From positions 1-55,019 of the forward strand of contig NZ_FNQE01000027.1 in assembly GCF_900107485.1 (NCBI RefSeq): a stretch of DNA of 55,019 bases, given 5' to 3'. Origin of the DNA: Proteiniborus ethanoligenes (GTDB taxonomy: Bacteria; Bacillota; Clostridia; Tissierellales; Proteiniboraceae). This document shows positions 44,971 through 48,188 of the stretch, in pieces (within the stretch, counting starts at the first letter, position 1; every line of letters begins with the position of its first letter). Both the position numbers and the translations under genes were made by a program. The notes below the pieces were generated by a model. The model searched no databases. It saw only the letters and a program-made list of their open reading frames with translations, and had not been told where the DNA came from.

Positions 44971-45046
44971 TGGAGCTGGTGAAAGGACTTGAACCCTCAA
45001 CCTACTGATTACAAGTCAGTTGCTCTACCGATTGAGCTACACCAGC
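44971..45046 (-). tRNA. tRNA-Thr (anticodon TGT)
   Basis: A 76-nt cloverleaf with encoded CCA. Acceptor GCTGGTG pairs with CACCAGC; D-arm GCTC-AATCGGTA-GAGC; anticodon arm ACTGA-CTTGTAA-TCAGT; T-arm with GGTTCAAGTCC. It is the last tRNA of the minus-strand cluster. Confidence 0.95.
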
Positions 45047-45051
45047 ATAAT

Positions 45052-45178
45052 TAACTTTACTTCTCGGATTTAACTGTTTAGTTTTATTAACTCGTTCGCT
45101 GTAACTAAGCGATGCACACAAAATCAAAAGCATGATTTTGGTGCCCTGCTTATACCGATTGAGCTACACCAGCATAAT
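45052..45178 (-). repeat. ~101-nt hairpin insert plus duplicated 5' end of tRNA-Thr
   Basis: Bases 45153-45178 repeat 45026-45051 exactly: the first 21 nt of tRNA-Thr and 5 bases of its leader. Between them lies a 101-nt insert whose distal part (45107-45151) folds into a long hairpin (AAGC/GCTT outer pair; CAAAATCA/TGATTTTG inner pair). The truncated copy stops inside the D-loop, so it is not a functional tRNA. Confidence 0.8.
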
Positions 45179-45191
45179 ATCTGCGCAGTCT

Positions 45192-45288
45192 CGCAACACA
45201 AATTTGTTTACTCCCATACGGTCGTACAAATTTGGTGCTCGTTGCGTTTGACCTACCTACAATTCGCTTCGCTCATTGGGTTAGGTCA
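45192..45288. repeat. Compound hairpin upstream of tRNA-Thr and downstream of tRNA-Asp
   Basis: Arms CGCAAC...CAAATTTG (45192-45206) and CAAATTTG...GTTGCG (45227-45246), followed by TGACCTA/TAGGTCA (45249-45255, 45282-45288). It shares GCACCAAA and TTTGTGT blocks with the hairpin next to tRNA-Thr, so it may be a diverged member of the same repeat family, but no tRNA fragment accompanies it. Confidence 0.5.
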
Positions 45289-45291
45289 TAA

Positions 45292-45368
45292 TGGCGACCT
45301 GGAAGGGACTCGAACCCTCGACCTCCAGCGTGACAGGCTGGCATTCTAACCATCTGAACTACCAGGCC
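45292..45368 (-). tRNA. tRNA-Asp (anticodon GTC)
   Basis: A 77-nt cloverleaf with encoded CCA. Acceptor GGCCTGG, anticodon arm CCAGC-CTGTCAC-GCTGG, T-arm GGTTCGAGTCC. It is the only tRNA of the four without a duplicated 5' fragment beside it. Confidence 0.95.
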
Positions 45369-45376
45369 GTATATAT

Positions 45377-45500
45377 TAATTAAGAATTAAGAATGGAGAA
45401 TTAAGAATTACTTTGGAAATACATTCCAATTTTCAATTGCCATTATTCTTAGCTTATGGCTTTTTGTTTTTTTAATTCTCAATTTTCAATTTTTAATTTA
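45377..45500. repeat. AT-rich inverted repeat (GAATTAAGAATTA-type)
   Basis: Left side 45377-45411 contains tandem AATTAAGAATTAAGAAT-like words; right side 45472-45500 contains the complement (TAATTCTCAATTTTCAAT). This kind of word is common as a dispersed repeat in clostridial genomes and can fold into one long hairpin between tRNA-Asp and tRNA-Val. Confidence 0.6.
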
Positions 45501-45516
45501 CTGCTTTGCAGTATAA

Positions 45517-45592
45517 TGGTGGGCGCAATAGGGCTCGAACCTATGACCCCCTGCTTGTAAGGCAGGTGCTCTCCCAGCTGAGCTATGCGCCC
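45517..45592 (-). tRNA. tRNA-Val (anticodon TAC)
   Basis: A 76-nt cloverleaf with encoded CCA. Acceptor GGGCGCA, D-arm GCTC-AGCTGGGA-GAGC, anticodon arm CCTGC-CTTACAA-GCAGG, T-arm GGTTCGAGCCC. Confidence 0.95.
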
Positions 45593-45595
45593 TTA

Positions 45596-45720
45596 TTTGA
45601 TTTGTTTGTGGTAATAACCATATTTTTAAATTTACTTTGCTGGTCCCAACAAAGCGATCCTCGCAAAACGCTATGCGCGTTTTGGATGCCTGCTTTTCCC
45701 AGCTGAGCTATGCGCCCTTA
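45596..45720 (-). repeat. ~101-nt hairpin insert plus duplicated 5' end of tRNA-Val
   Basis: Bases 45697-45720 repeat 45572-45595 exactly (tRNA-Val nt 1-21 plus 3 leader bases). The intervening 101 nt end in a hairpin at 45651-45696 (AAAGC/GCTTT outer, CAAAACGC/GCGTTTTG inner, ATCC/GGAT). Size and layout match the tRNA-Thr and tRNA-Lys cases. Confidence 0.8.
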
Positions 45721-45746
45721 GTAAATTGAATTTATTTAGGTTATAA

Positions 45747-45822
45747 TGGTGACCCATCCGCGACTCGAACGCGGGACACCCTGATTAAAAGTCAGGTGCT
45801 CTACCGACTGAGCTAATGGGTC
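45747..45822 (-). tRNA. tRNA-Lys (anticodon TTT)
   Basis: A 76-nt cloverleaf with encoded CCA. Acceptor GACCCAT, D-arm GCTC-AGTCGGTA-GAGC, anticodon arm CCTGA-CTTTTAA-TCAGG, T-arm CGTTCGAGTCG. It is the first tRNA of the cluster on the minus strand. Confidence 0.95.
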
Positions 45823-45827
45823 TTGTT

Positions 45828-45953
45828 GAATTTAATTTACGGTATTAGCCATCACTTCGTTTTAATTCATTAATATCAACTAAGCGATTCACTCCAAACC
45901 AGAAGCATGGTTTGGGTTCTCTGCTTATACCGACTGAGCTAATGGGTCTTGTT
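45828..45953 (-). repeat. ~100-nt hairpin insert plus duplicated 5' end of tRNA-Lys
   Basis: Bases 45928-45953 repeat 45802-45827 exactly (tRNA-Lys nt 1-21 plus 5 leader bases). The intervening 100 nt end in a hairpin at 45881-45927 (TAAGC/GCTTA outer, CCAAACCA/TGGTTTGG inner). The outer arms and the AAGCGAT motif are shared with the Thr and Val inserts while the inner arms differ but stay paired. Confidence 0.8.
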
Positions 45954-46036
45954 TAAAGACTACTCTTCATATGATACAAGAAACGACCTTTTTTGTCAAT
46001 GATTTTTTTATATTTTTTTCATAGACTCATAATGAT

Positions 46037-46093: not shown

Positions 46094-46214
46094 TTATCTA
46101 CAGGTAACTAATTCTATGAAATTGTGTTTTTATCCACAGTTTGTCCTAAAAAACTATTTTTAATCCACATATCCACAGACATATGCACAGGTGTTCGCTT
46201 GTTATTTGTGAATA
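46094..46214. promoter_or_regulatory. Cluster of DnaA-box-like sites
   Basis: Two perfect TTATNCACA boxes: TTATCCACA at 46130-46138 and TTATTCACA on the minus strand at 46206-46214. Near matches: TTATCTACA (46094-46102), TAATCCACA (46161-46169), ATATCCACA (46169-46177), ATATGCACA (46181-46189). Six sites in 121 bases is far above chance. It lies between helicase-loader genes and the dnaB helicase gene. Confidence 0.65.
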
Positions 46215-46853: not shown

Positions 46854-48188
46854 TTATATTGGTTTCTCCATATTTAAAAACTTAGTGTATTGTCCCATAA
46901 ACACTAATTCTACAGTACCTGTAGGTCCATTACGATGCTTTGCAATAATTATCTCTCCAATATTTTTCTTTTCTGAATCAGGATGATAATATTCATCTCT
47001 ATACAAGAACATTACAATGTCAGCATCCTGCTCTATAGCTCCAGATTCACGTAAATCTGAAAGTATAGGTCTATGGTCAGACCTCATTTCAGGTGCACGT
47101 GATAGCTGTGACAAGGCTACTACAGGACAATCCATTTCCTTTGCTAAACCCTTTAACCCTCTTGATATGGCAGATATTTCCTGTTGCCTGCTTTCAATTC
47201 TTCCTTCACCTGACATAAGCTGTAAATAATCTATCATTATAAGTCCTAGGCCTTTTTCAGCTTTAAGTCTCCTACATTTGGCCTTCATTTCCATTAAAGT
47301 GATTCCCGGAGTATCATCTATAAATATATTAGCCTGAGATAGGGGTCCCATAGCTCTTAAAAGCTTTGGCCAATCATCTTCATTTAATCTACCGTTTATA
47401 ATTTTTTGGAGTTCTACATGAGATTCAGAGCTTAGCATACGTTGTACCAGCTGCTCCTTTGACATCTCAAGACTAAATATAGCTACTGAAGCATTTCCTT
47501 TTAAAGCTGCATTCACAGCAACGTTAACAGAAAATGCAGTTTTACCCATGGATGGTCTTGCAGCCACTAATACTAAATCAGATTTCTGTAGCCCAGAGGT
47601 TTTGTTATCTAAATCTATAAATCCTGTTGTAAGTCCTGTAATACTGCTTTTATTTTGAGCCATCTGCTCAATTCTTGCAAAGCTTTCAAGAAGTACTTCT
47701 TTTATCGGATCTAAGCCTTCACGACTTCTTTTTTGAGTTATATCGAATATTTTCTTCTCTGCTGCATCTATTATTATATTAATATCTTCGTCTGCTTCGT
47801 ATCCCTTTGCTATTATTTCATTAGAAGCATTAATAAGCCTTCTAAGTATTGACTTCTCCTCTACTATTTCACAATAAAATTTAATATTTGCAGTAGTAGA
47901 TATACTTTCTGACAAATCTGCAAGGTATAGTATTCCTCCTATTGCATCTAATGTATCTCTTTTTTTAAGCTCATCAGATAAAGTTATTAAGTCTACAGGC
48001 TCATCTCTGTTGTATAAGTCTATAATTGCTTCATATATTTCCTTATGAGCCTCTTTATAAAAATCTCCAGATTTTAATATCTCTGTTGCAACTACAATTG
48101 CATTCTTATCTAGTATCATAGAGCCTAAAACAGACTGCTCTCCCTCTATACTATGAGGAGGTATTTTACCTAGTGAATTTAATTCCAT
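46854..48188 (-). CDS. dnaB: Replicative DNA helicase
   Basis: A 444-residue hexameric helicase (DnaB; dnaC in Bacillus naming). N-terminal domain PPHSIEGEQSVLGSMI (10-110), linker, and RecA-like domain with Walker A ARPSMGKTAFS, Walker B LIMIDYLQLMSG, and DADIVMFLYRDEYY near the C terminus. It unwinds the fork after loading by DnaD/DnaI. The gene follows rplI, the usual Firmicutes order. The ATG follows GGGTGAT. Confidence 0.96.
   Translation of the reverse strand: MELNSLGKIPPHSIEGEQSVLGSMILDKNAIVVATEILKSGDFYKEAHKEIYEAIIDLYNRDEPVDLITLSDELKKRDTLDAIGGILYLADLSESISTTANIKFYCEIVEEKSILRRLINASNEIIAKGYEADEDINIIIDAAEKKIFDITQKRSREGLDPIKEVLLESFARIEQMAQNKSSITGLTTGFIDLDNKTSGLQKSDLVLVAARPSMGKTAFSVNVAVNAALKGNASVAIFSLEMSKEQLVQRMLSSESHVELQKIINGRLNEDDWPKLLRAMGPLSQANIFIDDTPGITLMEMKAKCRRLKAEKGLGLIMIDYLQLMSGEGRIESRQQEISAISRGLKGLAKEMDCPVVALSQLSRAPEMRSDHRPILSDLRESGAIEQDADIVMFLYRDEYYHPDSEKKNIGEIIIAKHRNGPTGTVELVFMGQYTKFLNMEKPI

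Follow-up and report, generated by a model that had tools for sequence, protein, structure and literature searches.

Several kinds of small or tRNA-associated repeats have been described that resemble parts of what we report here. REP sequences, mobilised by Y1 (RAYT) transposases, are generally described as short conserved hairpins dispersed between genes. MITEs are gene-less DDE-type miniature elements of about 100 nt, found as repeated insertions with flanking direct repeats, and are usually recognised by terminal inverted repeats and a short target duplication of constant length. Integrative elements with tyrosine integrases insert into tRNA genes, which stay whole because the missing part is restored, typically the 3' end. 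CRISPR arrays consist of tandem direct repeats with regular spacing. We examined a tRNA operon in a 55,019-nt stretch of Proteiniborus ethanoligenes DNA (contig NZ_FNQE01000027.1, assembly GCF_900107485.1; in the following the window), where hairpin inserts interrupt tRNA genes in the D-loop, yet each insert is followed by a fresh copy of the first part of the gene.

The operon comprises tRNA-Lys, Val, Asp and Thr, as found by ARAGORN. Lys, Val and Thr show, from 5' to 3', an exact copy of the leader end plus tRNA nt 1-21, a hairpin (HP), a linker, the same leader end and the intact tRNA (Table 1). Copy-to-copy distances were 127, 125 and 126 nt for Thr, Val and Lys, with inserts of 101, 101 and 100 nt. 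These three pairs supplied all 19 direct repeats of 20 nt in the window when one strand was compared with itself. tRNA-Asp had no such copy within 350 nt. The earlier note, which had described the duplicated 5' ends, the outer arms and central stems of the hairpins and the compensatory changes in these stems, was thus confirmed. An assembly artefact is very unlikely since the layout recurs in three single-contig genomes.

Table 1. Features of the tRNA operon and its surroundings (positions in the window)
Feature	Position	Strand	Remarks
tRNA-Thr (tgt)	44971-45046	-	intact, downstream (functional) copy
Downstream copy of the duplicated block, Thr	45026-45051	-	5 leader nt + tRNA nt 1-21
Linker, Thr element	45052-45103	-	52 nt
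Hairpin HP, Thr element	45104-45152	-	starts at D-loop junction GGTA|TAAGC; 67.3 bits, E 4.4e-16 (in the model's seed)
Upstream exact copy, Thr	45153-45178	-	leader + tRNA nt 1-21, 26 nt
Second repeat	45180-45290		between tRNA-Asp and tRNA-Thr; + coordinates
tRNA-Val (tac)	45517-45592	-	intact
Downstream copy of the duplicated block, Val	45572-45595	-	3 leader nt + tRNA nt 1-21
Linker, Val element	45596-45648	-	53 nt
Hairpin HP, Val element	45649-45696	-	junction GGGA|AAAGC; 55 bits, E 2.6e-12 (in the seed)
Upstream exact copy, Val	45697-45720	-	leader + tRNA nt 1-21, 24 nt
tRNA-Lys (ttt)	45747-45822	-	intact
Downstream copy of the duplicated block, Lys	45802-45827	-	5 leader nt + tRNA nt 1-21
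Linker, Lys element	45828-45878	-	51 nt
Hairpin HP, Lys element	45879-45927	-	junction GGTA|TAAGC; 72.2 bits, E 1.4e-17 (in the seed)
Upstream exact copy, Lys	45928-45953	-	leader + tRNA nt 1-21, 26 nt
Promoter-like site	45971-45999	-	TTGACA-17-TATCAT, 11 of 12 consensus bases, upstream of the first copy
TTATCCACA-like words	46120-46190		upstream of the tRNA operon
ORF	46854-48188	-	possibly resembling a replicative helicase

The inserts share certain characteristics with the described systems, but also show differences. Like REP sequences, the HP occurs in many dispersed intergenic copies in some families, although the P. ethanoligenes genome has four strong HP matches. However, the Y1 family (PF01797) was absent in 5 of 25 carrier genomes, no HP match at E up to 1 was found in 30 Y1 loci with up to 1.5 kb on either side, and the target is rebuilt. 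In contrast to MITEs, the paired arms lie within the first 48-49 nt of the 100-101 nt insert rather than at its two ends, and the duplicated block is long and of variable length. In contrast to IS200/IS605-derived elements, which insert without target duplication, upstream and downstream copies were present in 128 of 136 tRNA-linked units. As for integrative elements, the interrupted tRNA gene is restored, but here the junction lies in the D-loop, it is the 5' half that is restored, and inserts of 100-101 nt leave no room for an integrase gene. When compared to CRISPR arrays, it is the hairpin that is conserved, and array units are mostly alike rather than unique spacers between constant repeats. 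Rfam models matched only the four tRNAs in the window, and 20 HP loci searched at E up to 1 gave two matches, both below gathering score. We found no description of such an element in the literature, as far as could be judged from listings and the beginnings of abstracts.

Empty sites were found in close relatives. One genome of the same genus (G001; G and L numbers denote genomes and fetched loci) has the same operon order, plus tRNA-Glu by eye, with single Lys, Val and Thr genes and no insert, whereas a second one (G002) has Val and Thr empty and only Lys filled. In both, the region from promoter to leader resembles, by eye, what lies upstream of the upstream Lys copy in the window. The upstream copy thus sits in the old position, and hairpin, linker and second copy are the added piece. 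The elements lie inside the presumed transcription unit, downstream of the promoter-like site; the promoter scan as a whole found no more sites than shuffles (2 against a mean of 3.2), but similar sites were seen by eye in G001 and G002.

The observation extends far beyond the window. A covariance model built from 13 hairpins matched 62 of 249 genomes of the order at E <= 0.01, in 32 of 92 genera, and 23 of 391 genomes sampled from the class at E <= 0.001, this sample including the P. ethanoligenes genome. Model matches include Acetobacterium, Eubacterium, Tissierella, Anaerosalibacter, Alkalibaculum, Acetoanaerobium and [Clostridium] ultunense, whereas loci of unrelated groups such as Bacteroidota had no HP match. 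Of 329 matches listed, 278 were tabulated, giving 241 distinct HPs; the 51 omitted were repeats of loci already present, matches at or close to a locus end and weak partial copies. Of the 241, 136 lie just upstream of an intact tRNA on the same strand, 32 are inner units of arrays, 8 more have a copy (5S rRNA, a repeat of genome G013, units whose tRNA or next hairpin was not recognised by the script, and two possible chance rows), and 65 show no target copy 40-104 nt downstream. Among the 136 tRNA-linked units, 128 have the upstream copy with at most 1 mismatch in its last 10 nt. Of the other 8, one is cut by the locus end, two have the copy with a 1-nt indel, four keep a damaged remnant and one has none, as expected of an unneeded relic. 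In the 127 measured units, the isotypes are Lys 36, Thr 26, Gly 17, Cys 17, Phe 13, Leu 13, Trp 2, Arg 1, Asn 1 and Val 1. Conversely, among 727 distinct tRNA genes with 200 nt upstream in the fetched loci, no partial 5' copy of at least 18 of 20 nt stands without an HP, once 13 listed rows had been inspected: 6 carry an HP missed by the regular expression and 7 are whole neighbouring tRNA genes. These loci, however, were mostly chosen for having the element.

The consensus hairpin is TAAGYAGAGAACC-stem-loop-stem-GTGTGAATCRCTTAGT, with 44 nt in 122 of 241 cases and a range of 42-62 nt. A single exception of 113 nt, in Anaerosalibacter sp. ND1, has an enlarged apical part and again lies upstream of an intact tRNA-Thr. 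Covariation supports the pairing. In a 13-sequence MAFFT alignment 202 of 202 cells pair and 5 of 16 pairs have changes on both sides, though the structure had been read off members of the set. With 150 of 173 matches aligned (113 distinct rows), 99.6% of cells pair, 9 of 15 pairs change on both sides in 142 cells, and none of 500 shuffles reached these values; sliding the partners by 1-3 columns dropped pairing to at most 40%. This second alignment was fitted to the model, which favours it. Whole apical stems are exchanged: in Acetobacterium, units with similar linkers carry either a short stem or a longer one with a loop like CACGACCGTAGG.

The target is a sequence, GGYA|GA or close to it, rather than the D-loop as such, which the earlier note had proposed. 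In loci fetched by the hairpin model alone, 44 of 44 tRNA-linked distinct hits have GG[CT]A|GA. Over all 128 units, 126 end in GGTA or GGCA, the exceptions being tRNA-Val of the window (GGGA) and one Arg (GATA), but most of the rest were fetched by a GGYA pattern. For the same reason the p-value for GGYAGA (132 of 329 against 3 of 398) is biased, and the count of 44 is the fairer one. Genes with GGTTAGA-like D-loops carry the element in 1 of 152 in this biased sample. Outside tRNA genes, the same layout stands in antisense at the 3' end of the 5S rRNA gene at each of the three loci fetched from genome G278, with near-identical inserts, about 30 nt duplicated and the 5S gene intact. In G013 it sits in a repeat, palindromic by eye, followed by GAAATCC.

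The distance from hairpin end to junction was nearly constant, 76.9 nt on average (sd 2.9, range 72-84, n=127 of 128, with one 47-nt outlier left out), and the 5S case gave 77. To tRNA +1 the sd was 3.4. tRNA-Cys, whose 5' part is 4 nt longer than that of Thr, has a linker shorter by about as much, so that the junction rather than the tRNA start seems to be the reference; Lys and Phe units tend to be longer (79-81). The duplicated block, however, is not of fixed length: many exact blocks are 21-22 nt, three loci (L054, L063 and L165) stop sharply at 36-39 nt next to perfect identity, and two (L140 and L235) reach up to 60 nt aligned. A fixed duplication of ~60 nt, tempting from the latter two, was rejected on these grounds, and the long block of a further locus, L194, carries element motifs and is probably a relic of an older unit. 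On 91 single units, similarity between upstream and downstream leader modestly exceeded that of mismatched loci out to about 50 nt from the junction, without a significance test. No insertion mechanism known to us explains a fixed total with a variable block.

Tandem arrays of whole units were observed, with up to eight units at 124-125 nt before one tRNA-Thr and four before another in genome G016, and three each at four further loci. At two loci, unlike units stand side by side. In 34 independent same-isotype pairs the 31-nt HP core is 92% identical, the linker 81%, the upstream copy 97% and the downstream copy 99%; the core exceeded the linker in 29 of 34. The choice of the core was made after a comparison over the full HP, a poor measure because apical stems are swapped, had shown the HP above the linker in only 108 of 185 pairs. 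In four pairs checked letter by letter, the two loci differ by the same substitution in both copies, as unequal recombination between direct repeats would give. Two loci from two Acetobacterium species share the same damaged upstream copy, so that unit is inherited.

Our favoured explanation, held with moderate confidence, is that the inserts are copies of a non-autonomous mobile hairpin element of Clostridia, composed of a conserved hairpin and a fast-evolving linker of about 50 nt, which enters most often the D-loop of tRNA-Lys, Thr, Gly, Cys, Phe or Leu genes. This supports the main idea of the earlier note, a miniature element that leaves an intact tRNA. Mobility is inferred from empty sites, target motif and spread, not observed. 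It is likewise inferred that a protein acting in trans recognises the hairpin, cuts the target and generates the duplication, that insertions are tolerated only where the duplication restores the gene, and that later unequal recombination makes the arrays and keeps the upstream copy like the tRNA. No autonomous partner was found. Among the 25 carriers, besides Y1, reverse transcriptase (PF00078) is absent in 7, the TnpB zinc ribbon in 9 and IS110 in 11, and the P. ethanoligenes genome lacks Y1, TnpB and IS110 matches at E <= 0.001. None of the four is present in all 25; many genomes are drafts, and an enzyme may have been lost after insertion. ORFs in eight stretches with dispersed HPs showed nothing recognisable by eye as a mobile partner. 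Linkers at different isotypes of one genome are often poorly alike, as in the window, though partly alike in genomes G028 and G220, so recent copying between sites is not clearly seen. One might further speculate, tentatively, about a new class of insertion mechanism, a machine that recognises a small hairpin, acts at GGYA|GA and leaves about 75 nt between hairpin and junction, of which the last part is a fresh copy of the target. Structural-RNA genes would then serve as harmless landing sites that are rebuilt and can each be turned into a growing array.

A structured RNA made from the tRNA leader, the alternative raised in the earlier note, is unlikely but not excluded. The unit might make a hairpin-stabilised 5' tRNA piece, or a switch in which the upstream copy competes with the real 5' end for the tRNA's 3' half, selection keeping hairpin, copy and spacing. 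The better conservation of HP core and upstream copy, the covariation, the near-constant spacing and the position downstream of the presumed promoter are in line with this, and a selective reading of the shared substitutions is not excluded, although they can come from recombination. Copies at 5S rRNA in antisense and at intergenic sites without tRNA, and the empty sites in close relatives, speak against it. So do 11 tRNA rows with an upstream copy below 18 of 20, several of them damaged or truncated (a twelfth row, a false hit, was set aside). Spacing is also somewhat tighter to the junction than to tRNA +1, which points to the insertion step. The linker is no more structured than shuffled sequence (mean energy -4.96 against -4.80, mononucleotides shuffled in 12-nt blocks), with positions 14-19 pairing slightly more than shuffled, and its composition showed only an AT-rich leader with T at -1 and no clear -10 box.

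Site-specific recombination, in which a ~120-137 bp circle carrying its own copy of the tRNA 5' part is integrated by a recombinase in trans, appears more doubtful. It would explain an identical tRNA part beside unlike leaders (the circle having come from another lineage), near-constant unit length, arrays of unlike units and tRNA-specific linkers in Acetobacterium. However, the units are too short for an integrase gene, though integrase families were not searched, and with ten isotypes, 5S and a repeat as targets the carried copy would have to change each time. One 93-nt stretch of hairpin and part of the linker had no match in phage or plasmid collections, and one exact hairpin pattern none in viral contigs. 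RNA-guided or retro-type insertion, with the hairpin RNA as scaffold or template and the tRNA part as guide or primer-binding site, is the least likely. The geometry would suit it, since the block has a fixed edge at GGYA|GA and a loose far edge, often stopping close to tRNA +1, a processing site. Yet the reverse transcriptase family is missing also from a single-contig genome with arrays, and TnpB from 9 carriers, although other RNA-guided nucleases were not searched.

The arrays put extra copies of tRNA 5' parts into tRNA operons, which could also affect tRNA processing. In other families the HP lies between genes without a tRNA. By eye, in genome G018 it follows terminator-like hairpins (L082, L087) or lies inside what look like older copies of itself (L084, L085); at L084, L085 and L087 hairpins follow the 5' half of another hairpin (ATCTATGATTT|TAAGCAG), giving nested and tandem arrays. 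At one locus it lies at the stop codon of an ORF that may encode a B12-dependent ribonucleotide reductase. In genomes G410, G451 and G603 the hairpin lies inside longer dispersed repeats, without an Rfam match at gathering score in the five loci tested. P. ethanoligenes has one free-standing copy, in contig 13 (61948-61996), upstream of an ORF possibly encoding a sugar ABC transporter permease; it is followed by TTCTTCACC, similar to TTCATC after free-standing copies in three other genomes. The second repeat of the window (Table 1) accounted for 24 of the 31 places found in the same genome by a 928-bp query. Its apical stem and loop (ACCAAATTTGTACGACCGTA..GTGT) resemble the long-loop hairpins of Acetobacterium, and similar copies follow other tRNA genes in G002, by eye. 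The TTATCCACA-like words upstream of the operon may be DnaA-box-like.
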